64,000 nt of DNA from Planctomicrobium piriforme (GCA_945861585.1 CAMAVC010000001.1:131947-195946), one strand, 5' to 3'; shown: positions 29,698-57,800, counted from the stretch's first letter. Numbers and translations: made by a program. The notes: a model not told the origin generated them from the letters alone.

Positions 29698-32649
29698 ATG
29701 GCGACGCTTCCCCTCGACCGACTCGCCGCCAGCCTCGAGGGCGACGTCCACGCGGACGACCTCGCCCGCACGATCTACTCGACCGATGCCTCGGAATACC
29801 AGGAGCGGCCGCTGGCCGTCGCCTGCCCGAAGTCGGAGGCCGACGTGCGCCGGCTCGTGCAGTTCGCGGCGGAGCACCGCGTCGGCCTGATCCCGCGAGG
29901 GGCCGGCACGTCGCTCGCCGGGCAGGTGGTCGGCGGCGGGATCGTGGTCGATCTCGGGCGGCACATGCACAGGATCGCGGCCCTCGACGTCGCACGGCGG
30001 CGGGTGCGGGTGCAGCCGGGTGTCGTGCGCAATGAGCTCAACACGTTCCTCGCCCCGCACGGCCTCTTCTTCGGTCCCGAAACCTCCACCGCCTCCTGGG
30101 CCATGGTCGGCGGCATGGTGGGCAACAACTCCTGTGGCTCGAACTCGATCGCCTACGGCTCCACTCGCGACCATCTCATTTCGGTCCGCGGGTTTCTCGC
30201 CGACGGGAGTGAGGCGACGTTCGGGCCACTCTCCGCGGATGCCTTCGCGGCGAAGTGTGCCGGGCCTGCCACGCTCGAGACGCAGATATATCGTTCAATC
30301 CGCGACATCCTTGGCAACGAGGCAAACCGCCAGCTGATCCGTGACTCGTTTCCCCGGCCCGAGGTCACGCGTCGCAACACTGGCTACGCACTCGACGCCC
30401 TCCTCGACGCATCCTGCTTCGATCCTGGCAGCGCCGCCGAGTTCGACATGTGCCGGCTACTCGCCGGTTCGGAGGGCACGCTGTTCGTGGGTGTCGAGTT
30501 CGAACTCAACCTGATCCCGCTGCCGCCGCCCGGTGCGCTCGTCTGCGTCCATTGTCGTTCGGTCGACGAGGCGCTGCGGGCCACGCTCGTCGCCATGCAG
30601 CGCCGCGGCGGCGAGGTCGTGCTCACGGCCTGCGAACTGATCGACGACAAGATCCTCGCCTGCACGAAGGACAATGCCGAGCAGACCCGAAATCGGGCGT
30701 TCGTGGTCGGAGACCCGGGTGCCGTGCTCGTGGTCGAGTTCAAGCATGTCGACCGCCGCCGGGTGGAACAGGCGGTCGCGAGCCTCGAGGCGGATCTCCG
30801 GGCCGCCGGCCTCGGCTATGCCTATCCCGTGCTCCACGGCACCGACGGCGACAAGGTGTGGGAACTCCGGCGCGCCGGTCAGGGCCTCGTCAACAACGTG
30901 CCGGGTGACGCCAAGCCCCGCGAGATCGTCGAAGACACGGCGGTGGCAGTCGAGGATTTGCCCGCCTACATCGCCGAGTTCGACCGCCTCCTCGCCGAGA
31001 AGTACTCGATCGATTGCGTCCACTATGCCCACGCCGGAGCGGGTGAACTGCACCTGCGGCCACTCTTCGACCTCCGCACGCCAGCGGGGTTGAAGATGTT
31101 TCGCGCCGTCGCCACCGACGTCGCGGCCCTCGTGAAAAAATACCGCGGCAGCCTCTCCGGCGAGCACGGAGACGGCCGGCTCCGCGGAGAGTTCATCCGT
31201 ACGATGGTGGGCGACGAGTGCTATGCGTTGCTCGAGCGGGTGAAGCGGGCGTTCGACCCGCAGGGGATTTTGAATCCGGGAAAAATCATCGACACGCCGC
31301 CGATGGATACGTCGCTGCGGATCGTGCCCGGTGAACCCGAGCCGACCCGCGACACGGTGTTCCGCTTCGCCGACACCGGCGGCGTGCTCCGGGCTGCCGA
31401 AAAATGCACGGGCGTCGGTCAGTGCCGCAAGACACACCTGATCGGCGGCACGATGTGCCCGAGCTACATGGCCACGCGCAACGAGCGCGATACGACCCGG
31501 GCTCGGGCCAACGTCCTGCGGCAGGCGCTCGCCGATCCGGCCACGGCCGACCCTTGGTCGCGGCCTGAAGTCGCCGAGGTGATGGAGCTGTGCCTCTCGT
31601 GCAAGGCCTGCAAATCTGAGTGCCCTTCGAACGTCGACATGGCCCGGCTCAAGGCGGAGTGGCAGCAGCACGTGCACGACGCGAAGGGCGTGCCGCTGCG
31701 CACGCGGCTCGTGGCCGAGAGCGCGGCCTCGCTCCGCCGCGCGTCCGTCGTCCCCTGGCTCTACAACCTCGCCGTCACGGCGCCGGGCATCTCGACGCTC
31801 GTGAAGCAAGTGCTCGGCTTTCATCCGCGCAGGTCGCTCCCACCGCTGCCCGCGACCACGCTCCGCGGCTGGCTCGCCCGCCGGCCGCCGCGGCGATCGC
31901 CCGCGCCGCATGGCCGCGTGCATCTCTTCTGCGACGAGTTCACCGACACGCTCGACGCCCCGATCGGCATCCAGGCGGTCGAACTGCTCGAGGCCCTCGG
32001 CTGGGAGGTCGTCGTGCCCGAGCACGTCGACAGCGGCCGGGCGCATCTCTCCAAGGGGCTCGTGCGCACTGCCCGCGATCTCGCGAGCCGCAACGTCGAG
32101 CTGCTCTCGCGTGTGGTCACCGCCGACGCGCCGCTCGTCGGCATCGAGCCGTCGGCGATCCTGTCGTTTCGCGACGAGTATCCCGATCTCGTGCCCGAGC
32201 GGCTCGCTGCAGCGGCTCGCAACCTCGCCGGCCACGCGCTCCTGATCGACGAGTTCCTCGCCCGCGAGGCCGACCGCGGCCGGATCTCGGCCGACGCATT
32301 CACTGCCGAGCGGCGCGACATCAAGCTCCACGGCCACTGCCATCAGAAGGCGCTCTCGTCGCTCGCCCCCACGGTCGCGGCGCTCTCGCTGCCGCGGAAC
32401 TACTCGGTCGAGGTGATTCCATCGGGCTGCTGCGGGATGGCCGGGTCGTTCGGCTACGAGCGTGAGCATTTCGACCTGTCGATGCAGATCGGCGAGCTTG
32501 TGCTTTTTCCCGCGGTGCGAGCGGCCGGGCCGGAAGTGCTCCTCGCCGCCCCCGGCACGAGCTGCCGGCACCAGATCAAAGACGGAACGGGGCGCGAGGC
32601 CGGCCACCCCGTCGAGATCCTCCACGCCGCGCTCGTCGCTACGTCCTGA
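29698..32649 (+). CDS. FAD-linked oxidase with Fe-S and CCG domains (GlcD/Dld-type D-2-hydroxyacid dehydrogenase)
   Basis: HRVGLIPRGAGTSLAGQVVGGGIVVDL, SGEHGDGRLRGEF, CLSCKACKSECPSNVDMARLKAEW, SGCCGMAGSFGYE. Confidence 0.95.
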   Translation: MATLPLDRLAASLEGDVHADDLARTIYSTDASEYQERPLAVACPKSEADVRRLVQFAAEHRVGLIPRGAGTSLAGQVVGGGIVVDLGRHMHRIAALDVARRRVRVQPGVVRNELNTFLAPHGLFFGPETSTASWAMVGGMVGNNSCGSNSIAYGSTRDHLISVRGFLADGSEATFGPLSADAFAAKCAGPATLETQIYRSIRDILGNEANRQLIRDSFPRPEVTRRNTGYALDALLDASCFDPGSAAEFDMCRLLAGSEGTLFVGVEFELNLIPLPPPGALVCVHCRSVDEALRATLVAMQRRGGEVVLTACELIDDKILACTKDNAEQTRNRAFVVGDPGAVLVVEFKHVDRRRVEQAVASLEADLRAAGLGYAYPVLHGTDGDKVWELRRAGQGLVNNVPGDAKPREIVEDTAVAVEDLPAYIAEFDRLLAEKYSIDCVHYAHAGAGELHLRPLFDLRTPAGLKMFRAVATDVAALVKKYRGSLSGEHGDGRLRGEFIRTMVGDECYALLERVKRAFDPQGILNPGKIIDTPPMDTSLRIVPGEPEPTRDTVFRFADTGGVLRAAEKCTGVGQCRKTHLIGGTMCPSYMATRNERDTTRARANVLRQALADPATADPWSRPEVAEVMELCLSCKACKSECPSNVDMARLKAEWQQHVHDAKGVPLRTRLVAESAASLRRASVVPWLYNLAVTAPGISTLVKQVLGFHPRRSLPPLPATTLRGWLARRPPRRSPAPHGRVHLFCDEFTDTLDAPIGIQAVELLEALGWEVVVPEHVDSGRAHLSKGLVRTARDLASRNVELLSRVVTADAPLVGIEPSAILSFRDEYPDLVPERLAAAARNLAGHALLIDEFLAREADRGRISADAFTAERRDIKLHGHCHQKALSSLAPTVAALSLPRNYSVEVIPSGCCGMAGSFGYEREHFDLSMQIGELVLFPAVRAAGPEVLLAAPGTSCRHQIKDGTGREAGHPVEILHAALVATS

Positions 32650-34063
32650 CTAGGCGGTGCCACGTCACGGTCACAGGCACGATCGATGGGGCGGTGAACG
32701 CGACGGTGCCGGACCACAACCGCAACGAGAGCCGCTCGAGGTGCCGCAGGGTGGTGAGTGCGGCTGGCAGCTGGCACTCGTAGCGAACGACAGGTCGGCC
32801 GGCTGCCGAGCGGCACAGCACACCCGCGCCGCCACCCACCACGAGCCCCGGGGCGCAGATCTCAGCCGCAGGCATCGTGGCGGCGGACAAGCCGGCCGCA
32901 TCGAGCTCCCAGCGCACAAGCAGCCAGTCGTGCAACCTGGCCTGGGGTATCGGGCAGGTGATCATGCCATCGCCCGGTGCCAGGGCGCCGTGAACTGTCG
33001 CCAGCGGCAGCGCGGTGACTCCGGCGCTCGACACGCCGGCGCTGATCCCGGCACGTTCGTGCGCCCGGCTGGCGGCCATGGCAAGTGCCGCCTGTTTTTC
33101 AGCGGGAGTTTCCGGATCAGGTTGCGCGGCATAGCACGACAGTTCCGCGCGCTGGACATCGTTCGAGCGTGAGGCGAGGTGGCGCAGCACGTCGGCAGGC
33201 ACCGCGCGGCCGAGGGCGTCGCGCAGGTAGCCGAGCCCCGCGTGGAGCGCGGCGTGCAGCACGCGCGAGTTGGCCTCCGCGAGCACCACGTCCCAGTCGA
33301 CCGTGCCGGCATCGATGAGGCTCGCCGCGTCGACCGTCCAGTCGGCGGCACCGTCCCGCGACCAGCGCACGCCGTGCGTGACGGCGAGCACGAGAGCGTC
33401 GGCCGGCGCCGGCAGGTGCACGGTGGCACCGCGCCACTGGCGCGTCGTCGCCCTCCTCCAGAGTCCGTCGTCGTCGCCCGTGAGCCGATTGAGGTGGTTC
33501 GAGAAGTGGTGCAGGTCGATCTCGCCCCGGCCCTTGATGACGGTCCAGGCATGATGGCCCGCCACCGCGCTCGCCGCCCGTGCCTGCACGGCCCATGGCG
33601 GCTCGCGGAGCGTCCAGCCGGCGCTGCAGAGCAGCGCGAGTGCCCGCTCCGCGGACGCCAGCGGCACGAGCACATCGACGTCGCGGATCAGCCGCTCGTG
33701 TGCGGACGCAGGCTGGGCCACGACCCGGGCGGCGCCCTTCGTCAGCAAGACCGGGATCCCGGCCTCTGACAACGCCGCGAGCGCCGGGCCGGCCGGTTCG
33801 AGGCACATCTGCGTGTGCACCCAGAGAAACTTGCGGATGCCCTCCACGCGGGGCCTGACATCGGCGTCTTCCTCGAGCGTGGCGATTCGGCTGGCGACGG
33901 CCGCGAGCATCCGCACCTCGCTCCACGACGTGGTGTCAAGGTCGTGCTCGGCCCGCCAGCGGCGCCACGCGGCGCGCGCCTCGGCCTCGGGAGCAAGCGC
34001 GGCTCGCACAAGGAGATCGAGTCCTCCGCGCGGCACGGCGATTGGATCGGGCGAGGTGTTCAT
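32639..34063 (-). CDS. Nucleotidyltransferase family protein (NTP_transf_5-like)
   Basis: GIPVLLTKGAARVVAQPASAHERLIRDVDVLVPLASAERAL (K-G-A...R-D-x-D-x-L-V), EIDLHHFSNHLNRL. Confidence 0.8.
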   Translation of the reverse strand: MNTSPDPIAVPRGGLDLLVRAALAPEAEARAAWRRWRAEHDLDTTSWSEVRMLAAVASRIATLEEDADVRPRVEGIRKFLWVHTQMCLEPAGPALAALSEAGIPVLLTKGAARVVAQPASAHERLIRDVDVLVPLASAERALALLCSAGWTLREPPWAVQARAASAVAGHHAWTVIKGRGEIDLHHFSNHLNRLTGDDDGLWRRATTRQWRGATVHLPAPADALVLAVTHGVRWSRDGAADWTVDAASLIDAGTVDWDVVLAEANSRVLHAALHAGLGYLRDALGRAVPADVLRHLASRSNDVQRAELSCYAAQPDPETPAEKQAALAMAASRAHERAGISAGVSSAGVTALPLATVHGALAPGDGMITCPIPQARLHDWLLVRWELDAAGLSAATMPAAEICAPGLVVGGGAGVLCRSAAGRPVVRYECQLPAALTTLRHLERLSLRLWSGTVAFTAPSIVPVTVTWHRLVRT

Positions 34064-34731
34064 GTGGTCGGAGGCCGGCGTCGGGCGAGGGCCGCGCGGG
34101 CCACGGCGAGGAGGCTGGCGTTGCGGGCGGCGCTTTGGCTGAGCGTGCCGGGCCGCAGGCGCCGCCGGAGCACGACCTGGTCGACCGGCTGGAACGTGCA
34201 GCCGGCATGGCGGGCCCGGTCGATCCACTCGATCCACGCGCCCACGCGGATCGACTCGTCGAGAAACCCTGCGCGGTCGAAAGCCCACCGCCGCAGGAGC
34301 ATGCCGCCGGCGAGCCAGGCCGGCTCGTTCACCCGCGGCACGAACCGCGCGGCCACGTCGGCGGAGAGCGTCGGACACGGAAACTCGCTGAATCGCCCCA
34401 CGCTGCCGGCGAGGTCAGCCCGTGCGGCGAGGTGCCGCTCCTGCGCCTCCAGGCAGTCGGGTGTCCAGAGGTCGTCGGCGTCGAGAAACGCCACAAGGTC
34501 TCCCCGCGCGGCCTGCAATCCAGAGTTGAGGGCGGCTGCCACGCCGCGGTGGGCCTGTCGCACGACGCGGGCGCCGCCGGCGGTCGCGACCGCCACCGTG
34601 TCGTCACTCGAGCCGTCGTCCACGACGATCACTTCGTCGGCGCTCCGCGACTGCGCACGGACGCTCGCGAGCGTCTCGCCGAGCGTCTCGGCCGCGTCGT
34701 GCGCGGGGATGATCACACTGATTGTCGTCAT
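34060..34731 (-). CDS. Glycosyltransferase family 2
   Basis: TTISVIIPAHDAAETLGETLASVRAQ, EVIVVDDGSSDDT, DLVAFLDADDLW. Confidence 0.93.
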   Translation of the reverse strand: MTTISVIIPAHDAAETLGETLASVRAQSRSADEVIVVDDGSSDDTVAVATAGGARVVRQAHRGVAAALNSGLQAARGDLVAFLDADDLWTPDCLEAQERHLAARADLAGSVGRFSEFPCPTLSADVAARFVPRVNEPAWLAGGMLLRRWAFDRAGFLDESIRVGAWIEWIDRARHAGCTFQPVDQVVLRRRLRPGTLSQSAARNASLLAVARAALARRRPPTT

Positions 34732-35471
34732 GCTTGCTCCACGAAGCTCGCGAAGTCGCGCAGCGGCATCGCAAGCGTGCCGGCCGCCCGCCGCCGCAGG
34801 ATCGATTTGTGGGTGGCGAGGCGAAAGTCGGCCTGCTGGCGGGGATTGTCGGCCGCCATCAGCGACGCCGCGTGCCGTCGATAGAAGAGTTCGACGCTCC
34901 GCAGGATCGTGAACGGCACGGCGGCCTCCCGCACCCGCAGCATGAGGTCGACATCTTCACCGTAGAGCAGCGCCTCGTCGAATCGGCCGCCCAGCCGGTC
35001 GAAGGCCGCACGGCGGTAGATGCATGCGCCGAGATGCACGTGGAAGAGCGTCTCGGTGCGGCTGTCGGCCGCGGGCTCGAGGCCCGAGTCAACCGCAGTC
35101 TCGAAGTAGCGGACATACCCGCTCACCATGTCGATCTGCGGCGCGCGGTGGAGACGGTCGAGTTGGCGCACGAGCTTGCCCGCCGGCCACAGGTCGTCGG
35201 CATCAAGGAACGCGAGCACGTCACCAGACGCCTCGGCGAGCGCCACGTTGCGGGCAGCCGCCGGTGTGAGCGGGCCTGCGGCCACGAGCCGCACCGGCTG
35301 CCCCGCTGCACGGTGCGAGAGCGCGACATCGGCGGAGCCGTCGCCCGACGCGCAATCGACGACCACGACCTCGTGCACGGGCTGCTCCTGTCGCCACACC
35401 GACCTGAGCGCCGCGTCGAGATAGGGCGCTGCATTGCGACACGGCATGATCACCGACACGCGGTCGCTCAT
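34728..35471 (-). CDS. Glycosyltransferase family 2
   Basis: RVSVIMPCRNAAPYLDAALRSVWRQ, DVLAFLDADDLWPAGKL, YGEDVDLMLRV. Confidence 0.93.
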   Translation of the reverse strand: MSDRVSVIMPCRNAAPYLDAALRSVWRQEQPVHEVVVVDCASGDGSADVALSHRAAGQPVRLVAAGPLTPAAARNVALAEASGDVLAFLDADDLWPAGKLVRQLDRLHRAPQIDMVSGYVRYFETAVDSGLEPAADSRTETLFHVHLGACIYRRAAFDRLGGRFDEALLYGEDVDLMLRVREAAVPFTILRSVELFYRRHAASLMAADNPRQQADFRLATHKSILRRRAAGTLAMPLRDFASFVEQA

Positions 35472-36550
35472 CGGCCGCCCCCTTCGATCCAGACCGTGAG
35501 CCTCTCGATGGCCTCGGCTGGATTCGTGCCGAGGGCGAGTGTGAACGCCGGCACGGTGCGCACGAGCGCGGCGGCCTTGCGGAGCGTCTCAGATTCCGCC
35601 CCGCGCAGGAGAAACGCAGTCGGCGGCCCGAGCGACCGGAGCATGGCGCCGGGGGCGAGCGGTGTGATCGTGGTGGTCGCCTGGCCCGAGACCACGCACT
35701 GCATGAGGGCCATGAGCGGCACGGATTGCACGAGCCGCCCGGGAGCCACGTCGGAACAGCGGACGAGTGATTTGTCGCCACACGGCCGCGCCGCAGCGCT
35801 CGTGAAGAGCTCCGGCACGCGGCCGCCAGGCTCCGCTGGGAAAAACTTCACGGCGTCGTAGAGCGCGTGGCCGGTCCACGCTCCGGCGCCGTCGTCGACG
35901 ACGACGAGATCGTCGCCGCAGGTGCCGAGGCCGGCGGCGACGGCCGCCATCACCGTCGTCGACTTGCCCGAGCCACCTGGCCCCGCGAGCAGCACGCCGC
36001 GGCCGCGGTGCACGACGATGCCGGCGTGAAGCAGCGTGGCCCGCGTCTTGGCGAGGAACCAATTGAAGATGGCTTTGAAGGGCGCCGCCTCCTCCCAGAA
36101 CGGCACGTCCGTCGTGTCGGCGATCCAGAACAGACCGCGGCGGGTGGCCGCGTCGCAGATCGACCAAAACCGGCGATCGTGGTCGTAGAAGGCCCGCAGC
36201 CCGCGTGCTTCGTCGATATGCAATCGCTCCAGGTGCCGTGGGCTCGTGTGCGGCAGGTTCCACGGCGGCGGGATCGAGGCTGCCAGCGCTCCGCTCAGCA
36301 CCGTGAGCGTGAGGTCTGACGGTGCCGAAGCATCGTCGGCCGCGAGCATGCAGAGCGTGAGCCGCTTGGAAAGAGCCGCATCGTTACCCACGATTCGGCA
36401 CGCCTGGCGGCCGAGGTGAAACCGACCCGTGAACGTCGCCGCGGCCTCTGCACGACCGACCGCGTCGTCGAGCAAGGCGAGTAACGCGTGCGTCGAGTCG
36501 GCATGCGCCGTCGTCGAATCCAGCGGCGACGCGCGGGCGTCAGGAGACAT
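35468..36550 (-). CDS. HPr-kinase-related P-loop protein
   Basis: TLLHAGIVVHRGRGVLLAGPGGSGKSTTVMAAVAAG (Walker A), CGDDLVVVDDG; operon context with PqqD-like gene. Confidence 0.82.
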   Translation of the reverse strand: MSPDARASPLDSTTAHADSTHALLALLDDAVGRAEAAATFTGRFHLGRQACRIVGNDAALSKRLTLCMLAADDASAPSDLTLTVLSGALAASIPPPWNLPHTSPRHLERLHIDEARGLRAFYDHDRRFWSICDAATRRGLFWIADTTDVPFWEEAAPFKAIFNWFLAKTRATLLHAGIVVHRGRGVLLAGPGGSGKSTTVMAAVAAGLGTCGDDLVVVDDGAGAWTGHALYDAVKFFPAEPGGRVPELFTSAAARPCGDKSLVRCSDVAPGRLVQSVPLMALMQCVVSGQATTTITPLAPGAMLRSLGPPTAFLLRGAESETLRKAAALVRTVPAFTLALGTNPAEAIERLTVWIEGGGR

Positions 36551-36962
36551 CGGGGAAGTTCGCCGGGCGGAGCGGCCAGCCGGCGGCGGCGTCGACCTCG
36601 TGGACCGGATCGATCGCGATCAGTTCCGCGAGATCGGAGAACGCCGCCACCACCGGCGCGGCGAATCCGCCGGCCGGTACGGAGCAGGCGATGTCGGCTT
36701 GGGGAGGCGCCGCGGTCTCACGCACGAGATCGTGGCGGCAGAGATCCCCGATCGCTGCTTCGATCGCTTGGCGGTCAGCGCCGTGGGCCGCGAACGTATC
36801 GAGCACGGCAGTCTGGCTGCGCGGTGCCGCAAATGCCCGCCAAAGATCCCCAGCCGCCCCTTGGAGGCTGAAGTAGACCCCCTTCTCGATATCGATCAGG
36901 ACGACCTCGCCGGCGAATTCCTCGGCGGCGATGCGGTCATTGGCGACGAACGCGGCGGACAT
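36540..36962 (-). CDS. PqqD-family (RiPP recognition element-like) protein
   Basis: DRIAAEEFAGEVVLIDIEKGVYFSLQGAAGDLWRAF typical of PqqD-like folds. Confidence 0.8.
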   Translation of the reverse strand: MSAAFVANDRIAAEEFAGEVVLIDIEKGVYFSLQGAAGDLWRAFAAPRSQTAVLDTFAAHGADRQAIEAAIGDLCRHDLVRETAAPPQADIACSVPAGGFAAPVVAAFSDLAELIAIDPVHEVDAAAGWPLRPANFPDVS

Positions 36963-37127: not shown

Positions 37128-40229
<3,102 letters not shown>

Positions 40230-40249
40230 CCCCGCCCACGAGGTGCGCC

Positions 40250-41677
40250 ATGATCGATCGCCACATCCACGAGGCCCGGGCGCGGCTCCTCTCGCGCCGC
40301 TGGTTCTTCAGCGACTGCGGCCTCGGCCTGGCGGGCATCGCCGCCGGGGCGATCGCCGCCCGCGAGTCGGTGGCCGGCCTCGCGCCCCCGTCGCCCCTGG
40401 CGGTGAAGCCGCCGCACTACGCACCCAAGGCGAAGCGGGTCGTCTACATGTTCCAGGCCGGGGCCCCGAGCCATCTCGAGCTCTTCGACTGGAAGCCGGA
40501 GCTCGCCAAGAACGACGGCAAATTGCCCCCGGCCGATCTGCTCCAGGGCTATCGCGCCGCCTTCATCAACCCGAATTCCGCCCTGCTCGGCCCGAAGTAC
40601 ACGTTTCAGCCCTACGGCAAGGCCGGCGTTGAGATGAGCGAACTCGTGCCGCACATCGGCGGCATCGCCGACGACATCTGCCTCATCCGCTCGATGCAGA
40701 CCGACGCGGTGAACCACGCCCCGGCGCAGATCCTGATGAACACCGGTTCGCAGCAGTTCGGCCGGCCGAGCTTCGGCGCCTGGACGCTCTACGGGCTCGG
40801 CAGTGAGGCGGAAGACCTGCCGGGGTTCGTCGTGCTCACGAGCGCCAAAGGCACGAGCGGCGGCGCGAGCAACTACGGCTCGGGCTTCCTGCCCACGTCG
40901 TACGGCGGCATCCCGCTGCGGGGCAGCGGCGACCCGGTGCTCTATCTTTCGAATCCCAAGGGCATTGACCGCGAAGCCCAGCGGGCCTCGCTCGACACGC
41001 TCAACCGGCTCAACGACATGGCCCTAGGACGGTTTGGCGACCCTGAAATCGCCTCGCGGATCCAGGCCTACGAGCTCGCCTACAAGCTCCAGGAGAGCGC
41101 GCCCGAGCTCATGAACCTCGCCAACGAGCCCAAGGAGACGCTCGCCCGCTACGGCATCACCGACCCCTCCCAGCCCGGCTACGCCCGCAACTGCCTGCTC
41201 GCCCGGCGGCTCCTGGAGCGGGGCGTGCGGTTCGTGCAGCTGTTCCACGAGGCCTGGGATCAGCACGGCAACCTCAAGGCGGGCGTCAAGCAAAACTGCG
41301 CCGACACGCAGCAGGCCTCGGCGGCGCTCGTGAGCGACCTCAAGGAGCGCGGCCTCCTGGACGACACGATCGTGATCTGGGGCGGTGAGTTCGGCCGCAC
41401 GCCGATGGTGCAGGGAGGCAACGACGGCCGCGACCACCACAACCGGGCCTTCTCGATGTGGCTGGCCGGCGGCGGCATCAAGGCGGGCCACGTGCATGGC
41501 AAGACCGACGACTTCGGGTTCAACGTGGTGGAGAACCCGGTGCACGTGCACGATCTCAACGCCACGCTCCTCCATCTCCTCGGCTTCGACCACACGAAGC
41601 TCACGTATCGCTTCCAGGGCCGCGACTACCGGCTCACCGACGTCCACGGCCATCTCGTGAAAGGCATCCTCGCGTAG
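40250..41677 (+). CDS. DUF1501 domain-containing protein
   Basis: LLSRRWFFSDCGLGLAGIAAG leader; PKAKRVVYMFQAGAPSHLELFDWKP; WGGEFGRTPMVQGGNDGRDHH. Confidence 0.95.
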   Translation: MIDRHIHEARARLLSRRWFFSDCGLGLAGIAAGAIAARESVAGLAPPSPLAVKPPHYAPKAKRVVYMFQAGAPSHLELFDWKPELAKNDGKLPPADLLQGYRAAFINPNSALLGPKYTFQPYGKAGVEMSELVPHIGGIADDICLIRSMQTDAVNHAPAQILMNTGSQQFGRPSFGAWTLYGLGSEAEDLPGFVVLTSAKGTSGGASNYGSGFLPTSYGGIPLRGSGDPVLYLSNPKGIDREAQRASLDTLNRLNDMALGRFGDPEIASRIQAYELAYKLQESAPELMNLANEPKETLARYGITDPSQPGYARNCLLARRLLERGVRFVQLFHEAWDQHGNLKAGVKQNCADTQQASAALVSDLKERGLLDDTIVIWGGEFGRTPMVQGGNDGRDHHNRAFSMWLAGGGIKAGHVHGKTDDFGFNVVENPVHVHDLNATLLHLLGFDHTKLTYRFQGRDYRLTDVHGHLVKGILA

Positions 41678-41704
41678 CTCGCGGCAGCAAGGACGAGGTG
41701 ATCC

Positions 41705-44131
41705 ATGACGCACGGTACCGTCAACGCCCGAGGATCGGCGTGGTCCGTCTCCGCCGCCATCGCGGCGGCCCTGCTGGCGGCGCCGGTCGCTGGCCAAACG
41801 CCCGCCGAGGGCCCGTCGTTCACTCGCGACATCAAGAGCATCCTCTCGAACCGCTGCGTACGCTGCCACGGCCCCGACCCGGAGGGCCGTGCCGGCGGCG
41901 GCGACGAGGGCCTCAGGCTCGACACGTTCGTCGGAGCGACGGCCGACCTTGGCGGCCACGCGGCGATCGTGCCCGGCAAGCCCGACGAGAGCGCACTCAT
42001 CGCCCGGATCACGTCCACAGACCCGGATGTCGTCATGCCGCCCCCTGACGCGGGCGAACGGCTCTCCGAGAAGCAGGGCGATCTCCTGAAGCGGTGGATC
42101 GCCGCGGGAGCGACCTACGAGCCGCATTGGGCCTACGTGCGGCCGAAGCGGCCCCTGGTACCGGTCGTGAAAGACTCGGCCTGGCCGAAGAACGAGATCG
42201 ACCGGTTTATCCTCGCCAAGCTCGAAGCCGAGGGGCTCACGCCGCAGCCCGAGGCTGACCGGACAGCCCTCGCGCGGCGGCTGGCGCTCGACCTCACCGG
42301 CCTGCCCATGGCTCCCGAGGAGATCGACACCTTCGTCGCCGATGCATCGCCCGACGCCGTTGAGAAGTTCGTCGATCGGCTGCTGGTCCACGACGGCTAC
42401 GGCGAACATCAGGCGCGTCAGTGGCTCGATCTCGCCCGCTATGCCGACAGTGCCGGCTACGCCGATGATCCGCCGCGAACGATCTGGGGCTGGCGGGACT
42501 GGGTGGTGAGGGCCTTCGATGCCAACATGCCGTTCGATGAATTCACGATCAAGCAGATCGCCGGCGACCTCCTGCCGAATGCCACACTCGACGACACGAT
42601 CGCCACGGCCTTCCACCGCAACACGCTCACGAACAACGAAGGGGGCACGATCGACGAGGAGTTCCGCACGGTCGCCGTCATCGACCGTGTGAACACGACC
42701 ATGAGCACGTGGATGGGCTCGACGATGGCCTGCGCCCAGTGCCATGACCACAAATACGACCCGCTCTCGCAGAAGGAGTATTTCCAGCTCTACGCGATCC
42801 TCAACAACACCGCCGACGCCGACCACAAAGACGAGTCACCGGTCGTCGGGATTCCGTGGGAGCCGGTGGACACGAGGCGCGGCGCGATCAAGAGAGAGAT
42901 CGCCGAGATCGAGGCAGGCATTCCCGCGCTGGCGAAGCCCGCCCCCGCAGACAGACCGGAGCCGCCGGAGTTTCAACCTGCCCGGAAGCTCATCGACGAC
43001 CTGCGCGGGAAGCTTGCCGCGACGCCTGCGATGACGGTGCCGGTGCTCGCGGAACTCACGGGCGACAAGCGGCGGGTGACGAAGATCCAGCTGCGCGGCA
43101 ACTGGCAGAACCTGGGCGATGAGGTCACGGAAGGCGTGCCCGGGGCATTCCATCCCGCGCCCGTCAACGCAGGGCAAGGGGTCGATCGCCTGGCGCTTGC
43201 CAAGTGGCTCGTCGACCCCGCCAATCCACTGACGGCCCGCGTGATCGTAAACCGCATCTGGGAGCGGCTCTTCGGGATCGGCATGGTTTCGACGAGCGAG
43301 GAGTTCGGTAGCCAGGGCGAACTGCCGAGCCATCCCGAACTGCTCGACTGGCTGGCCAGCGAGCTCGTCGCCCGGAACTGGGACCTCAAGGCGATCCAGC
43401 GGCTGATCGTGACGAGTGCCGCCTACCGGCAGACGTCGAAGTGCCCGCCCGAACTCGTGGCTCGTGATCCGGAAAATCGGCTCGTCGCGTGCGGTCCGCG
43501 GGTGCGGCTCCCCGCGGAGGTGATTCGTGACCAGGCCTTGGCTGCGAGCGGACTCCTGTCGCGAAAGAAGGGCGGCCCGAGCGTCCATCCACCCCAGCCC
43601 GACATCGGCCTCTCGGCCGCCTTCGGCGGCGGGCTCGACTGGACGACGAGCACGGGAGAAGACCGCTATCGCCGCGCGGTCTACACGACGTGGCGGCGGA
43701 GCAACCCTTATCCCTCGATGGCCACGTTCGACGCGCCTTCGCGCGAGGTGTGCACGATCCGGCGGCCGCGGACGAATACGCCGCTCCAGGCGCTCGTGAC
43801 GATGAACGACCCGGCGTATGTCGAGGCGGCGCAGGCGTTGGCCCGCCGGATGATCAGCGAGGGGGGATCCACCACGGCCGATCGGGCGCTACGGGGCTTC
43901 CGGCTCGTCCTCGCGCGGCAGCCCGTGGCCGCTGAAATCGACAGGCTCGTACGGCTGCACGACGACGCACTGGCGGATTTTCAGGAGTCTCCCGAGGACG
44001 CGAGGAAGATGGCCACCGATCCGCTCGGCCCGCCTCCCGTCGATCTCGCCGCCAACCTCGGCGATCTCGCCGCCTGGACAGTGGTGGCCAACGTGATTCT
44101 GAACCTCGACGAAGCCTTCATGTGTCCGTGA
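41705..44131 (+). CDS. PSD1 and planctomycete cytochrome c domain-containing protein (DUF1549/DUF1553)
   Basis: FTRDIKSILSNRCVRCHGPDPEG, RYADSAGYADDPPRTIWGWRDWVVRAF, CAQCHDHKYDP. Confidence 0.95.
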   Translation: MTHGTVNARGSAWSVSAAIAAALLAAPVAGQTPAEGPSFTRDIKSILSNRCVRCHGPDPEGRAGGGDEGLRLDTFVGATADLGGHAAIVPGKPDESALIARITSTDPDVVMPPPDAGERLSEKQGDLLKRWIAAGATYEPHWAYVRPKRPLVPVVKDSAWPKNEIDRFILAKLEAEGLTPQPEADRTALARRLALDLTGLPMAPEEIDTFVADASPDAVEKFVDRLLVHDGYGEHQARQWLDLARYADSAGYADDPPRTIWGWRDWVVRAFDANMPFDEFTIKQIAGDLLPNATLDDTIATAFHRNTLTNNEGGTIDEEFRTVAVIDRVNTTMSTWMGSTMACAQCHDHKYDPLSQKEYFQLYAILNNTADADHKDESPVVGIPWEPVDTRRGAIKREIAEIEAGIPALAKPAPADRPEPPEFQPARKLIDDLRGKLAATPAMTVPVLAELTGDKRRVTKIQLRGNWQNLGDEVTEGVPGAFHPAPVNAGQGVDRLALAKWLVDPANPLTARVIVNRIWERLFGIGMVSTSEEFGSQGELPSHPELLDWLASELVARNWDLKAIQRLIVTSAAYRQTSKCPPELVARDPENRLVACGPRVRLPAEVIRDQALAASGLLSRKKGGPSVHPPQPDIGLSAAFGGGLDWTTSTGEDRYRRAVYTTWRRSNPYPSMATFDAPSREVCTIRRPRTNTPLQALVTMNDPAYVEAAQALARRMISEGGSTTADRALRGFRLVLARQPVAAEIDRLVRLHDDALADFQESPEDARKMATDPLGPPPVDLAANLGDLAAWTVVANVILNLDEAFMCP

Positions 44132-44142
44132 GGAAGTGCTGC

Positions 44143-45597
44143 ATGGATCCGATTCTCGAATCGAAGCTGCTCGCCACGCGCCGCCACCTGCTCGGCGGGA
44201 TGGCCGGCGGGATCGGCGCGATCGCGATACGTGAATTGCTCGGTGCCACGGCTGCCGCTCCCACCCCGGCCCTGGCCGGCGATCCGATGGCGGTGAAGCG
44301 GCCACCACTGCCGGCGAAAGCGCAGCGGATGATCGTGATCCATCTCACGGGTTCGCCGCCGCACCTCGACCTGTACGACCACAAGCCGGAACTCGTGAAG
44401 CGCGACGGCGAAGACTGCCCGGCCGACACGATTGCGGGGAAAAAGTTCGCCTTCACTACCGGCACCCCCAAGCTGCTGGGCACGCCGCGGAAGTGGGTGC
44501 GGTGCGGCGCGAGCGGGATGGAGCTCTCCGATGCGATCCCGAACCTGCATCGCGTCGCCGACAAGCTCTGCCTCGTACGGAGCATGTTCACCGACCAGTT
44601 CAATCATGCGCCCGCCGAACTAATGGTCTACACGGGCTCGCCGCGGGCGGGTCGGCCGAGCCTGGGCAGCTGGGTGACCTACGGCCTCGGCACGGAGAAT
44701 GCGAACCTCCCTGGCTTCGTCACCCTGATCTCGTCGGGCGTACAGCCCAACGGCGGCACGAGCAGCTTCGGATCGGGCTTCCTGCCGAGCGTCTATCAAG
44801 GCGTGCAATGCCGCTCGAAGGGCGACCCGGTGCTCTACGTGTCGGACCCGCCGGGCATGAGCCGGGCGCTCCGCCGCACGAGCCTCGACGCCCTCAAGGA
44901 TCTCAACGAACTCCAGGCCCGTGAGCTCGGCAATCCCGAGACGGTGACGAGGATCGCCCAATATGAGCTCGCCTTCCGCATGCAGGCGAGCGTGCCCGAC
45001 GTGATGGACATCTCCAAGGAGCCGCAGCACGTGCTCGACGCCTACGGGGTCAAGCCGGGGCAGGCGAGCCTCGCCAACAATTGCCTGCTCGCCCGACGGC
45101 TCGTCGAGCAGGGCGTGCGGTTCGTGCACCTCTTCGACTGGGGCTGGGACTTCCACGGCACCGGTCCCCAGGAGGACATCCGCGACGGGCTCACGAAGAA
45201 GGCGGCCACGTTCGACAAGCCGGCGGCGGCCCTGATCGAGGATCTCGAGCAGCGGGGGCTCCTCGAAGACACGCTCGTGCTTTGCACCGGAGAGTTCGGC
45301 CGCACGCCGTTCCGGGAAGGCCGCACCGCGAAGGGCGACATCCTCGGCCGCGACCACTACCCCGACTGCTATTCCATCTGGATGGCCGGCGGCGGCGTCA
45401 AGCCGGGCCATGTCCATGGGGCGAGCGACGACCTCGGATTCAAGGTCGCGAGCGACATGGTGCACATCCACGACCTGCAGGCCACGCTCCTCCATCTCCT
45501 CGGCTTCGACCACACGAAGCTCACGTATCGCTTCCAGGGCCGCGACTACCGCCTCACCGACGTGCATGGCCATCTTGTGAAGGGCATCCTCGCCTGA
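44143..45597 (+). CDS. DUF1501 domain-containing protein
   Basis: LLATRRHLLGGMAGGIGAIAIREL leader; C-term HTKLTYRFQGRDYRLTDVHGHLVKGILA. Confidence 0.95.
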   Translation: MDPILESKLLATRRHLLGGMAGGIGAIAIRELLGATAAAPTPALAGDPMAVKRPPLPAKAQRMIVIHLTGSPPHLDLYDHKPELVKRDGEDCPADTIAGKKFAFTTGTPKLLGTPRKWVRCGASGMELSDAIPNLHRVADKLCLVRSMFTDQFNHAPAELMVYTGSPRAGRPSLGSWVTYGLGTENANLPGFVTLISSGVQPNGGTSSFGSGFLPSVYQGVQCRSKGDPVLYVSDPPGMSRALRRTSLDALKDLNELQARELGNPETVTRIAQYELAFRMQASVPDVMDISKEPQHVLDAYGVKPGQASLANNCLLARRLVEQGVRFVHLFDWGWDFHGTGPQEDIRDGLTKKAATFDKPAAALIEDLEQRGLLEDTLVLCTGEFGRTPFREGRTAKGDILGRDHYPDCYSIWMAGGGVKPGHVHGASDDLGFKVASDMVHIHDLQATLLHLLGFDHTKLTYRFQGRDYRLTDVHGHLVKGILA

Positions 45598-51811: not shown

Positions 51812-54800
51812 ATGAAGTCGTCACGGAAGACCACTGCCGCCGCGCCCTCGTGGCATGCCCTCGAAGTCGCTGTGCCCGAGGCGAGCCGCCTTGCGCGCGT
51901 CGCTGGGGGCCTGCCCGGCCGCGTGCTGCCGCAGGCCAACACCCTCGCGCACGCGATCGTCGCGGCGGTCACCGAAATCGGGGCCGCCACCCCCGCCACG
52001 TGGCTCATCGCCCCCTCGCGCCGCGTCGGCAACGAATGGCTCGAAACGCTTGTCCGTCTGGGGCATTCCGTCACCAACGTCCACGTCACCACGCTCTCCG
52101 CCCTCGCCTTCGACATCGTCGCCGACCGGCTCGCTGCCGATGGGGTGATGCTGGCGCCGCCGCGGGCCAAGCTCGTGGCCGTGGAGCGGGTGCTTGCCGA
52201 AAGCCGCGGCGAGCTGCGGTCGTTTGCCGCCGCGGCCGGCTCGACCCGTCGCCTCGCCGAGCGGCTGCTCAAGAGCCTCGAGGCTCTTCGCAATGCCGGG
52301 CTCTCTTCCCGCGACGTGTCGCTCGGCCTGCGGCATTCCGACAAGGCCCACGATCTCTGCATCCTCCTCGACCGCTATGTGGCGGCGCTCGGTGACCTGA
52401 ATCTGATCGACCAGGCCGGGGAGCTGGCACTCGCGATCGAGCAGGTGCGGGCCGGGAAGCTGCCCGCAAAGGTTTCCTGTCTGCTGGTGCCCGACGATCT
52501 CGACCTGCCGCGGCTCGAGCGACAGCTGCTCGAGGCCCTCGGGGCGGCCGAGGGCGTCACGGTTCACACGCTCGCCACTGATCCGCCGCTGCCCGCCCCG
52601 CCGGCAGCGGTCGCTGCGGCCCGCTTCCGGATCTTTCGTGGCTCAGGCGAGGCCAACGAGGTCCGCCACGTGCTCCGTACCTGCCTCGCGGAAGGCCTGC
52701 GGCTCGACGAAATCGAGATCGTCCACACCGATGCCGCGACCTATCCGCCGCTCGTTCGCGAGATCGTGGCGGCGCTCCACCGGCCCATCACCGCCGAGAT
52801 CGCCGCCGGCAGCGAAGGCCACGTGCCGGTCACGTTCGCCGAGGGCCTGCCGCTCGCCGACTCGAAGCCGGGCCGGGCCCTCGCCGGCTGGCTCGCCTGG
52901 CGGCGCGACGGCCATCCGCAGGCGGGCCTCGAAGAGATGCTCCGCGACGGCGTGCTCGACCTCGCGACGATCGTGCCTGATGCCCCGCGGCCGTCGGCCC
53001 TCGTGCGTGAATTGCGCCGCGTGAAGATCGGCCGCGGCCTGGGTCGCACGGTGTCGATGCTCACGGCGGCCGCGGCCCGCGCGGAGGAGCAGCCCCCGGA
53101 GTCGTTCGTGCGTCGTCACGACGACGGCGATCCGCCGGCCGGCGACGACCTGACTGCCGACGAGCTCGCCACCCGCAAGTCGCGGATCACGCAGCGGCTC
53201 TCGGCGCTTGCGGCCCTGGCCAATCATCTCGCCGCCTGCGAGGGTAGCTCTGACGCCACCGCCGAGCAGGTGCTCGGCGGCGCTCGCACATTCGTCGAAA
53301 CGGTCTGCCCGGCCGACAGCGAATTCGATGGCAACGCCCGCCGCATGATCCTCGACGAGATCGACGCGATGCAGAAGTGGCGGGGCCACTCCGGCATGCA
53401 GGCCCGCGACATGCTCGACTGGCTCGAGCAACTGCCCGCTGAGCTGGTCGTGCTCGGGGCCGGGCCGCGGCCGGGCTGCCTCCACGTGAGCGGCCTCACC
53501 GGGGGTGGCCACTCCGGCCGGCCCTACACGTTCGTGCTCGGCCTCGACGAAACCCGCTTTCCAGGGGGCAACGCCACCGATCCGGTGCTCACCGACGGCG
53601 ACCGCAGCCTGATCAACGAGTCGGCTCCCGACGCCCGGCTCACCGTCGCCCGCGATGCAGCCACCCGCAACCTCGACCTCTTCCGCCGACTGCTCGCGCG
53701 GGTGCGCGGCGGCGTGCGGCTCGGCTTCTCCTGTCGCGACATGGCCGACGACGCCGAGGTGTTTCCATCGCCGGCGCTCGTGGCTCTTCATGGGCAGGCC
53801 GTCGGCAATCCGCTGGCCACCGTCGACGATCTCCTCGAGTCGCTCGCCCCGCCTGAAACGCTCGTGCCCTCCGACCCGGGCCTCGCCCTCGACGAATCGC
53901 AGTGGTGGCTGGCGGTGCTCGGGCCCACTGCCCGTGCCGACGAGGTGCAGGCGGCCCTCGCCTCTCACCGCCATCACCTCGCCCACGGTCAGGCGGCGGC
54001 GGCCGCGCGGGCGGCCGACGTGTTCACGCCGCACGACGGCCTCGTGCCCGAGGCGGGCTTGCTGCTCGATCCCCGCGCGAGCCACGGCCGCGCCGCCTCG
54101 CCCAACAGCCTCGAGACGCTCGCCACGTGCCCGCGAAAATTTTTCTTCCGCTACGGCCTTGGCATCGAGCCACTCGAGCGGTTCGACGACGACGCCGACC
54201 GCTGGCTCACGCCGCTCGATGCCGGCAGCCTCCTGCACACCGTGCTCGAGCGGTTCATGCGCGGGCTCATCGACCGCGCGGAACTGCCCGAGGTCGGGGT
54301 GCATCTCGACGAGCTGCTCGCGATCCTCGACGAGGAGCTCGTGGCGAGCCGCCGCCGGCAGCCGCCGCTCACGGAGCTGGCCTTCGCCGCCCGCCGCGAC
54401 GAGCTCCGCACGGCGATGCACACGTTCCTCCACGACGAGGAGCGATCCTGCCGCGAGACGGGCCGGCGGCCGCTCGCGCTCGAGGCCGCGATCGGCGTGG
54501 AGCCGGCCGGCGCGGGCACGCCGTTCGACTGCCGCGAGCCGGTGGTCGTGTCGCTCGCTCCTGGTGAGACGATCAAGCTCCGTGGCCGAATCGACCGGAT
54601 CGACGTTCGCGACTCGGGCGACGGCCACGCGTATGCCCTCTGGGACTACAAGAGTGGCAGCGGCTACGGGTTTCCGGCGATGGCGGCCGACGATCCGTTT
54701 AACGGCGGCCGCAAGCTGCAACACGGCCTGTATGTCGTCATGCTCCGCACGCGGCTGGCGGATCCGGCATGCCCGGTCGGTGGCGGCGACGTCGAACGCT

Positions 54801-57800
54801 TCGGCTATTTCTTTCCCACGCGCGCGGGCAAGGGCCGGCGGCTCGAATGGACAGCTACTCAATTGGCCGAGTGCACGGCGCTCGTCCGCCGGCTCGCGGA
54901 GATTGCGCGGCAGGGCATCTTCCTGCCGACGGATGATCCCGCCGACTGCACCTTCTGCGATTTCGCGGCGGCCTGCGGTGATGCGGCGCGGGTGACCCGC
55001 GAGGCGGCCCGGATGGTCGGCGGCTCGCAGCCGCTCCGCGATCTCTTTGGCGAGCTGCGGCGCGACCGGCAGCAGCGGGCCGTGCCGACGATCCGCCGGC
55101 CCCACGAGGCGCCGCTTGCGGTCACGCCGCATCCTGCCGCGCCGGTGCCGCCCCCCGACGAGCCGGTCCGCCACCGCATCCGCACCGATCTTTCCACCAC
55201 GCTCCTGGTCGAGGCCGCGGCCGGTACGGGCAAGACCACGTGCATGGTCGATCGGATGCTGGCGCTCGTGCGCACCGGCGCTGCGAAGCCGGAAGGAATC
55301 GTGGCGGTCACGTTCACGAAGAAGGCGGCAGGCGAGCTCCGCCGCCGGTTCCGTGAGAAGCTGCAGCGGGCCGCCGTCGAGGCGACCGATCCGGCCGAGC
55401 AGGGCCGGCTCACGGCCGCGCTCGAACGGGTCGACTCGATGGTGATCGGCACGATCCATTCGTTCGCGGGCCGACTGTTGCGGGAGCGACCGCTGGAGGC
55501 GGGCGTCGACCCCGGCTTCCGCGAGCTCGACGATTCGGCCGACCGGCTCCTGCGCCGGCAGGCCTGGCGGGAGTTCGTCACCGCCGCGCCCGCCGACCAT
55601 CCCCAGCTGCTCGCCGATCTCGATGCCGTGGGCCTGCGGCTCGGTGACCTGTCGCGGCTGTTCGTGGAGCGGTTCGCCACCTATGGCGACGTCGAAGACT
55701 GGCCGGCGCCGGCCACACCGCCGCCAGACGTCACCGGTGTCGTCGCGGCGATCGAGGCGTTTGCGGGGCGGATCGAGGCCGAGGTGTTTCCCGGTCCGGC
55801 GGAGCGGGGCACCGACGAACTCATGAACGCGCTCGAGCAGTTCGCCCGCATAGTCCGCCGGTGCGATCGCTCTTCGGTCGTGGCCGTGATGGATGTGCTG
55901 CAGGAGCTCGACCGCACGCCGAAGGTCACGCAGAAGTGCTGGCCCGGGGTCGGCGACACCGACAAGGAGCGGAAGGCCGCCCAGAAGGAGGCGGCCCTCG
56001 GCTGGGCAGCCGAATGGGAGCAGCTCCGCGACACGCTCGCGCGGCCCGCGCTCTGGCAGTGGCGGGCCCATCGGTATCCCGTCGCGATCGCGGCGCTCCA
56101 GCAGGCGCTCGCCGTCTACGACCGGCTGCGGGCCGAGCGGGGCGGGCTCTCGTTTCAGGATCTGCTCTGCAAGGCCGCGCGGCTGCTCGTCGGGCAGCCC
56201 GACGTGCGGCGAAGCTTTCGGGCCCGCTACACGCACCTGCTCGTCGACGAATTCCAGGACACCGACCCGGTGCAGGCGGAGATGCTGCTCCTGCTCACGG
56301 CCACCGATCCCGACGAGCGCGACTGGCGGCAGTGCGTGCCCGCGCCGGGGTCGCTGTTCGTCGTGGGCGATCCGAAGCAGTCGCTCTATCGCTTCCGGCG
56401 GGCCGACATCGTCACCTACACCGCCGTCCGCGACATCATCGCGGCCCACGGCGACGTGCTCGCGCTGACGACCAACTTCCGCAGCCGGGGCGACCTCGTG
56501 GGCTGGGCCAACGACGTGTTCACGGCCCAGTTCCCACCGCAGGCCACGGTCGAATCGCCGTCGTTCACGCCGAGCACCTCGGGCCGCCGCGAGGCCCCGC
56601 CCACCGGGGGCGAGAAGGGCTGGCTCTCGGGTATCCGCACGCTGCGGTTCGTGCGGAGCGGCCAGGCGGGCGACCTCTGGGCGGAGCAGGAGGCCCGCGA
56701 GATTGCGACCTTTATCAGGAGGGCGATCGACGCCGGGCTGGCCGTGCCGCGCACGCTCGACGAGGCTGCCCACGGCCACACCACGGCCTGCCGGCCGGGC
56801 GACTTTCTGCTCGTGGCCCGGGAGCGGAAGCATCTCGGGATCTATGCGGCTGCCCTGCATGCGGTCGGCCTGCCGGTGGATGTCACAGGCACGCTGGGTG
56901 AAGACCAGGCCGAGCCGCTTCGCGAGCTCCGCACCTGCCTCGCGGCCCTTGCCGATCCCGATGATCCGGTGGCCCTGCTCGCACTCGTGCGGGGCGTGGT
57001 TTTCGGATTCAGTGATGCCGACCTCTTCGCCTACAAGACGGCCGGCGGCAGGTTCACCGGCGGGATCGACGTGCCCGCTGGTCTCGATGCGGTGCTGGCG
57101 GCCCGGTTCGCGGCCGCCCGCGAGGCCTTCTCCCGCTGGCGGTCATGGCTGCGGCATCTGCCGGTGGCCGCGACGGTGGAGCGGATCATCGACGACGCCG
57201 GCCTGTTCTTGATCGCGGCCGCGGCCGATGGCGAAGCGGGGCCGCGTGGCCGGGCCGTGGCCGGCCTCGTGCTCAAGTATCTGGAGCGGCTGCGGACCGA
57301 CCGGGCCGAGGTGGTGTCGATCCACGACTGCCTCGACCTGCTCGACGACATGATCGACGGATCGACGCGGGCCGAATTTGATCCGCTCACGATCGATCCG
57401 CCCTCGACCGCCTGCGTGCGGGTGATGAACCTTCACAAGGCGAAGGGGCTCGAGGCCCCGGTCGTGTTCCTCGTCGATTTCCAGAAGCGCAAAGTCGGCG
57501 ACGACGTGACCGACGGCCCGTTTCTCCACGTCGACCGCACCCATGCCCGCACCACAGGCCGTCTCGCCGTCACGCATGCCGTGGGCTGGACGCAGAAGAT
57601 CGTGGCGGCGCCGCTCGGCTGGGAAGAGTTCTGCCGCCGCGAGCGGGCCTTCGAACAGGCCGAGCAGATCCGGCTCGACTACGTGGCCGCCACGCGGCCG
57701 GGCAGCTGCCTCGTGGTGTCGCTCTATGAGAAGCAGGAAAAGGGCAAGAAGGACGAGCCCGATACGTTCACGGCCGAAGGGGCCTGGGAACGGTACGCCG

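Follow-up and report, generated by a model that had tools for sequence, protein, structure and literature searches.

What is the substrate of an operon that encodes a PqqD-like recognition element for ribosomally synthesized and post-translationally modified peptides (RiPPs), a kinase, two glycosyltransferases and a nucleotidyltransferase-like protein, and that shows no precursor peptide? This question is raised by a locus in a 64,000-nucleotide stretch of Planctomicrobium piriforme (GCA_945861585.1 CAMAVC010000001.1:131947-195946), referred to here as the window. An earlier note on this DNA described five overlapping genes for a PqqD/RiPP recognition element (RRE) protein, an HPr-kinase-like (HPrK-like) protein, two family 2 glycosyltransferases (GT2s) and an NTP_transf_5 protein, and proposed that their substrate was unlinked. 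Our results suggest that the missing precursor is probably built into the PqqD protein, because a leader-like strand of this protein is predicted to lie in its own cleft and residue D118 of its C-terminal tail takes the register of the phosphorylated serine of LPP precursors (Y+18).

The PqqD protein and its C-terminal tail

With its winged-helix fold and a PF05402 match of 25.3 bits (Pfam cut-off of 23.4), the PqqD protein of the window belongs to the RRE/PqqD superfamily. Its gene and the parts of its polypeptide, including those assigned from an AlphaFold2 (AF2) model with its predicted local distance difference test (pLDDT) scores, are as follows:

36540-36962, minus strand: PqqD/RRE protein of 140 amino acid residues, composed of RRE, linker, leader-like strand and conserved tail (PF05402 and AF2 model)
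36714-36953, minus strand: RRE (winged-helix) domain, residues 4-83 (pLDDT >93 over most of it; profile matches to TbiB1, PbaB1, TfuB1 and LppB)
36666-36713, minus strand: variable linker, residues 84-99 (10% mean pairwise identity, 123 loci)
36639-36665, minus strand: putative leader-like strand F100-xx-P103-x-V105-xx-F108, [FYW]xxPx[LIV] (AF2, fixed register, covariation and superposition)
36612-36638, minus strand: pre-motif segment, residues 109-117, consensus xD[ML]Q[DE]LLLL (conservation)
36573-36611, minus strand: near-invariant tail D118-P-V-H-E-V-D-A-A-A-G-W-P130 (DNA pattern match at 36574-36611)

The PqqD proteins adjoining kinase relatives in other planctomycete genomes have a common C-terminal tail; examples are ...DLAELIAIDPVHEVDAAAGWP from the window and ...DMQDILLLDPVHDVDEAGWP from G001, a genome of the same genus. 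Across relatives, its consensus is D-P-[IV]-H-[DE]-V-D-x(2,3)-G-W-P. Among 123 tail-bearing loci, most of them trimmed to at most 8 kb, residues 108-117 had a mean pairwise identity of 45%, as compared with 26% in the RRE domain and 10% in the linker. Residues 108-117 lie outside the search pattern and serve as a check on the bias from picking sequences by the motif. None of the Pfam and NCBIfam models matched in the analysis spans the tail motif, and the tail core strings did not occur in the papers of the literature collection searched. The earlier note had seen no obvious precursor. This is correct for a separate short open reading frame (ORF), which was found neither inside the operon nor as a conserved neighbor of the 123 loci, but the precursor-like tail fused to PqqD had been overlooked.

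In the AF2 model of the PqqD protein, whose mean pLDDT was 88, residues 104-108 formed an extra beta strand and residues 101-110 had a pLDDT of 95. The model of a natural RRE-tail-kinase fusion (L126), made from a different alignment, repeated this strand with a pLDDT of 93. The nearest solved fold was that of TbiB1 with a lasso leader (Z score of 9.8 over 82 residues, root-mean-square deviation of 2.5), and the RRE sequence profile matched TbiB1, PbaB1, TfuB1 and LppB. [FYW]xxPx[LIV] is the recognition motif in lasso and LPP leaders (PMC10368454, PMC13381572, PMC12710340). Of the 123 sequences, 74 had it at the same fixed register and none at any other; the rate in shuffled linkers was 0.2%. 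With VIA-align, residues 1-109 of the model were superposed on positions 136-1017 in a structure of NisB together with the NisA leader, and only residues 1-86 on another NisB entry. We take NisB to be 993 residues long, and numbers above that in the NisB and NisA chain are presumably leader; thus, the extra superposed residues should correspond to bound leader.

Covariation was also found between the strand and alpha3 of the RRE domain. At the position aligned to residue 66, D70 of LppB and Q79 of PbaB1 form hydrogen bonds with the aromatic residue of the leader motif in crystals (LppB D70 with LppA Y-16: PMC13381572). D66 and Y100 covaried (18 of 23 each, Fisher 6e-13), which corresponds to the contact between LppB D70 and LppA Y-16, and F100 was paired mostly with non-polar or small residues at position 66. 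The strongest covarying pair was 77-107, which showed a charge swap with 38 acid-base, 8 base-acid and 0 same-sign pairs. The D66-Y100 pairs were drawn from several phyla, and the base-acid pairs at 77-107 were all from Bacillota records. The model, the superposition and the covariation support a C-terminal strand, [FYW]xxPx[LIV]xx[YF], that would lie in the leader-binding cleft (beta3/alpha3) of an RRE, either in cis or by domain swap.

The operon, its distribution and its neighborhood

The five genes, all on the minus strand, were verified with successive overlaps of 11, 4, 4 and 4 bp, as the earlier note had described them. Downstream of the PqqD gene are:

35468-36550, minus strand: HPr-kinase-like kinase of 360 amino acid residues (alignment of relatives, profile and fold of the homologous L126 domain)
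34728-35471, minus strand: GT2 glycosyltransferase 1 of 247 amino acid residues (PF00535, 83 bits; LDADD motif by reading the sequence)
34060-34731, minus strand: GT2 glycosyltransferase 2 of 223 amino acid residues (PF00535, 112 bits; LDADD motif by reading the sequence)
32639-34063, minus strand: NTP_transf_5 nucleotidyltransferase-like protein of 474 amino acid residues (PF14907, 88 bits; RDVDVLV motif by reading the sequence)

The family assignments were also confirmed: PqqD, both GT2s and NTP_transf_5 were above the Pfam cut-offs, and HPrK was recognized from the profile of its relatives and the fold of a fused relative. The window genes were the single PF05402 match and the sole NTP_transf_5 copy above cut-off in the genome. 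The Pfam match of the kinase to Hpr_kinase_C was sub-threshold (17.8 bits). A profile built from 45 kinase relatives found the solved HPrK/P sequences with an E-value of 2e-9, and the domain of the L126 fusion model that is homologous to the window kinase matched the PEPCK/HPrK fold. In the alignment of these relatives, H175, G190, G193, G195, K196 and D214 were invariant, and the window kinase keeps H175, the GGSGKST P-loop, D213-D214, K235 and K260. Judged by its P-loop, catalytic His, DD motif and the fold of the L126 domain, the window kinase belongs to the HPrK/P superfamily. An anti-phage role was rejected, the kinase showing just a weak match to mads_8 (3e-5).

To follow the tail, one genome per bacterial and archaeal species was scanned with a degenerate nucleotide pattern encoding DP[VI]H[DE][VA]Dx(2,3)GWP, which matched the window once and 100 shuffles of it 0 times. 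At least 117 matching stretches were found from at least 12 phyla by record titles, including Pseudomonadota, Thermodesulfobacteriota, Nitrospirota, Bacillota, Bacteroidota, Cyanobacteriota, Chloroflexota, Acidobacteriota, Verrucomicrobiota, Planctomycetota, Actinomycetota and Ca. Nomurabacteria. Among the matches listed, the motif closed a PqqD-like frame in all readable cases and no stand-alone peptide family was recognized, a few frames being truncated or shifted (L123, L137 and L147). PF05402, which is independent of the tail, matched 68 of the 76 aligned tail-bearing members. One PqqD protein was also searched against plasmid records, with no match. When 13 planctomycete genomes were picked by the kinase alone, 12 had a recognizable tail and 10 the exact motif; D124 was replaced by S in G147 and by G in G382, and the tail of G056 was degenerate. 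The DNA pattern was present in 3 of 294 genomes of the phylum, each time beside HPrK, and a reversed control pattern in 0 of 294. Weaker HPrK homologs in the phylum (E-values of 1e-36 to 1e-21) had neither PqqD nor tail within about 1.5 kb by the regular expression used.

Natural variants of the tail also exist. In G056 (L015:1887-2354), a PqqD protein with a decayed tail (YVSPTL...DMATLLALDPPSPVLIDGAW) is encoded beside an HPrK-like gene and may reveal dispensable tail residues. Fusions of RRE, tail and HPrK-like kinase occur in L013:8901-10661, L016:10172-11848, L126 and L142, and what appears by eye to be a second degenerate PqqD-like segment lies between tail and kinase in these fusions.

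Among the 123 tail loci, HPrK-like genes were neighbors in 103, GT2 genes in 95 and NTP_transf_5 genes in 80. For the 30 loci whose flanks extended 3 kb or more in both directions, the counts were 27, 26 and 23, respectively. The exact five-gene order of the window was kept in 17 loci, from Alphaproteobacteria, Bacteroidota, a Microbacteriaceae bin, a cyanobacterial bin and Planctomycetota. The association of tail-bearing PqqD, HPrK, GT2 and NTP_transf_5 is not due to chance, and the conserved neighborhood that the earlier note had named as a check does exist. A search of 782 non-overlapping small ORFs near the 123 loci revealed no conserved one; the matches were only fragments of GT2 or NTP_transf_5 genes, near-identical loci or low-complexity sequences. 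Nor was a sixth conserved partner gene found, with GT4, ABC exporters and radical SAM occurring in minorities (about 19, about 16 and 5 members, respectively). In Mesorhizobium, Comamonadaceae and Burkholderiales, the operon is flanked by unrelated genes (GidA/TrmFO-like, TctC and hydroxyisobutyrate dehydrogenase-like), and the cassette thus looks self-sufficient.

In a tree of 98 kinases, a quick tree with SH-aLRT support only, the window copy grouped with those of Comamonadaceae and Burkholderiales (99% support, 50% identity) within a wider set that is mainly Pseudomonadota. The ten planctomycete copies had ten separate placements, of which at least 7 were forced by supported branches, and the copies of G001 and G004, from the window's own genus, were placed elsewhere. 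The cassette was patchy, being found in 8 of 72 genomes of the family. These placements, including those of the same-genus copies, therefore indicate that the cassette spreads horizontally.

Other genes were observed around the operon and its relatives. A fused FAD-linked oxidase and 4Fe-4S protein is encoded at 29698-32649 of the window, convergent with the NTP_transf_5 gene and overlapping its 3' end by 11 bp. Two tandem PSCyt/PSD1 and DUF1501 gene pairs, usual in Planctomycetota, are at 37314-45597, and one 2226-residue frame at 51812-58492 unites a PD-(D/E)XK nuclease with UvrD helicase domains and thereby resembles a fused protein of the AddAB type. Elsewhere, glucose/sorbosone dehydrogenases (PF07995, PQQ-enzyme type) are encoded near tail-bearing PqqD at L132:2719-3999 and L062:3324-4586, where no HPrK was detected, and a radical SAM gene at L107:5874-6893 immediately follows the five-gene operon in a betaproteobacterial bin.

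Possible functions of the tail

LPP precursors have the consensus YxxPxVLxHQxIxFETxxS, of which the phosphorylated S3 is at Y+18 (PMC13381572). In the tail-bearing proteins, the invariant D118 is also at +18 from the aromatic residue at position 100, with no indel in 122 of the 123 sequences, as compared with Y+19 for Ser3 of BsfA. In the pseudomycoidin pathway, PsmK phosphorylates the C-terminal Ser, and PsmN, annotated as a nucleotidyltransferase, is needed for the hexose on the phosphate (PMC9266682). We propose that this PqqD protein is a self-loaded RRE, with a precursor-like segment on its own chain, and that the tail is an in-cis substrate or pseudo-substrate of the operon enzymes, a proposal to which we give a little under an even chance. 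The bound strand would hold the tail, DP[IV]H[DE]VDx(2,3)GWP, where the HprK-like kinases of the LPP and paeninodin pathways meet their acceptor serine. The kinase would act first on the presented tail, followed by NTP_transf_5, by analogy with PsmK and PsmN, and then by the two GT2s, and the product may be a protein-tethered phospho-glycan. By register, D118 is the candidate acceptor and H121 the next. A bolder version, in which the operon represents a pan-bacterial, horizontally mobile pathway that uses an HprK-like kinase, NTP_transf_5 and GT2s to assemble a glycan at the near-invariant Asp/His tail of an RRE with an in-cis precursor, that is, a non-hydroxyl protein-tethered phosphoglycosylation, is speculative and rather unlikely.

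Several observations weigh against an in-cis substrate. No Ser, Thr or Cys, the residues that such kinases are known to use, was conserved within residues 110-130 of the 123 sequences, and a Ser/Thr phospho-acceptor in the tail was rejected on this ground. This leaves two options: an unusual acceptor (D118 or H121), or a tail that serves as pseudo-substrate or docking arm. In the natural RRE-HPrK fusions, the tail is an unchanged internal linker, which counts against a released C-terminal peptide. AF2 left the motif unplaced, with a pLDDT of about 65 alone and 41-47 beside its own kinase domain in the L126 fusion. The covariation tests ignore phylogeny, and the contact partner of the strand is a prediction from superposition and covariation. 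Moreover, most of the 123 sequences were picked by the motif itself, so that its invariance is partly by construction, and HPrK was not seen in 20 of the 123 loci within short contigs.

The absence of a hydroxyl acceptor and the retention of the tail as an internal linker in the kinase fusions would also be explained if the tail were a docking or regulatory arm. In this case, the strand would close the RRE on itself and the tail, a pseudo-substrate with Asp replacing Ser, would recruit or gate the kinase and the transferases, the real substrate being a common glycan, lipid or protein. The resemblance of the operon to a stand-alone unit among unrelated genes and the many glycosyltransferases near other loci are also in line with such an arm. 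However, the motif is near-invariant even though kinase and RRE drop to about 25% identity, which is beyond the usual need of docking, and AF2 does not dock the tail onto the kinase: docking was rejected as a placement, since the L126 fusion model gives the motif no position. A docking arm is a serious possibility, yet one held with clear reserve.

The RRE, HprK-like kinase and NTP_transf_5 of LPP and paeninodin clusters work on separate precursors (PMC13381572, PMC10368454), and a classical RiPP-like pathway with an unlinked precursor, whose external leader would displace the cis strand, has to be weighed for this reason. Against it, the 123 loci contain no conserved small ORF, the genome is devoid of a lasso B2 peptidase and the cleft is apparently occupied by the protein's own strand. 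The unlinked substrate of the earlier note is thus improbable and not the best reading, as both the leader-like strand and the near-invariant tail are on PqqD itself and the genome of the window has the tail motif only once. A tie to surface polysaccharide, also suggested in that note, was not found: the window flanks scanned contain the PSCyt/DUF1501 and FAD/Fe-S oxidase genes, and the Proteobacteria operon lies between unrelated genes. An accessory module for exopolysaccharide assembly of the HPr-rel-A type would account for the GT2 genes within the operon and for the presence of GT4 and ABC transporter genes in the vicinity of many relatives; with no polysaccharide genes in these flanks and with the HPr-rel-A scores given below, it is highly improbable.

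Comparison with known systems

A 2025 survey of RREs reported that many of them have no identified precursor and that 21% of PF05402 proteins exceed the length of a bare RRE, with no other domain annotated (PMC12710340). The tail-bearing PqqD family fits this over-long set, in which its extra length would consist of a self-contained recognition motif and a near-invariant peptide, and it may explain a class of "orphan" RREs. The substrate question is directly testable, as there is one exact candidate peptide in at least 12 phyla, including some cultured strains (Yoonia, Mesorhizobium and Verrucomicrobium).

Similar to the window operon, the HPr-rel-A system (TIGR04352 and TIGR04353) consists of a PqqD-like protein and an HprK-related kinase. 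The window proteins, however, scored far below both models: the kinase reached 32.8 bits with TIGR04352, for which the cut-off is 200, and PqqD did not match TIGR04353. Thus, the HPr-rel-A label of the earlier note was rejected.

The likeness to paeninodin-type tailoring holds for the HprK-like kinase, NTP_transf_5 and the PqqD-type RRE (PMC9266682, PMC13381572). The lasso clusters of paeninodin, pseudomycoidin and BsfA share with the window an HprK-like kinase (PsmK, BsfK) and a PqqD-type B1 protein, which binds a YxxPxL leader (PMC9266682, PMC10368454). The operon also has an NTP_transf_5 gene, and PsmN of pseudomycoidin, which is NTP_transf_5-like, adds a hexose to phospho-Ser. Different from the phosphorylated lasso clusters, the window has an Asp in the register of the acceptor Ser and no separate precursor; a short precursor with a YxxPxL leader was found neither inside the operon nor conserved near the 123 loci, the motif being only fused to PqqD. 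As the earlier note had observed, a lasso protease and cyclase are missing: the genome has no B2 leader peptidase (PF13471), and no cyclase is at the locus, so that a lasso cluster was rejected. Two full-length Asn_synthase-family genes lie near each other on another contig (G000:C2:85907-89604), the operon being on contig C1.

The LPP clusters of Bacillota (PMC13381572) share with the window a discrete RRE, an HprK-like kinase, an NTP transferase and the lack of lasso enzymes. Their recognition motif is YxxPx[V/L], and their phospho-acceptor at Y+18 is in the register of tail D118. They differ by a separate LppA precursor, an SpI-like peptidase and an MsbA-like exporter, none of which was found in the window operon or among the scanned flanks, and their core set is without the GT2 pair. 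Moreover, solved LppB has 107 residues with an RRE match to residue 104 and hence no tail, unlike the window PqqD. The other solved leader-bound RREs also stop soon after the domain (TbiB1, 91 residues; TfuB1, 99; PbaB1, 119).

Among curated families, MftF (TIGR03965), the mycofactocin glycosyltransferase of an RRE-dependent peptide pathway, was the best relative of GT2 1 and the second best of GT2 2. With 68 and 73 bits, however, they stayed below the cut-off of 280, and the operon has no radical SAM gene. In borosin-type precursors, the core peptide is on the same chain as part of the maturation machinery. The fused partner there is a methyltransferase and not an RRE, and borosin systems are not known to have a kinase or glycosyltransferases.

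On their defining features, as tested, the operon is outside the lasso, LPP and HPr-rel-A groups. By analogy, it resembles the lasso and LPP pathways in how its parts may work, with a precursor that would be tethered to the RRE and with two GT2s added.

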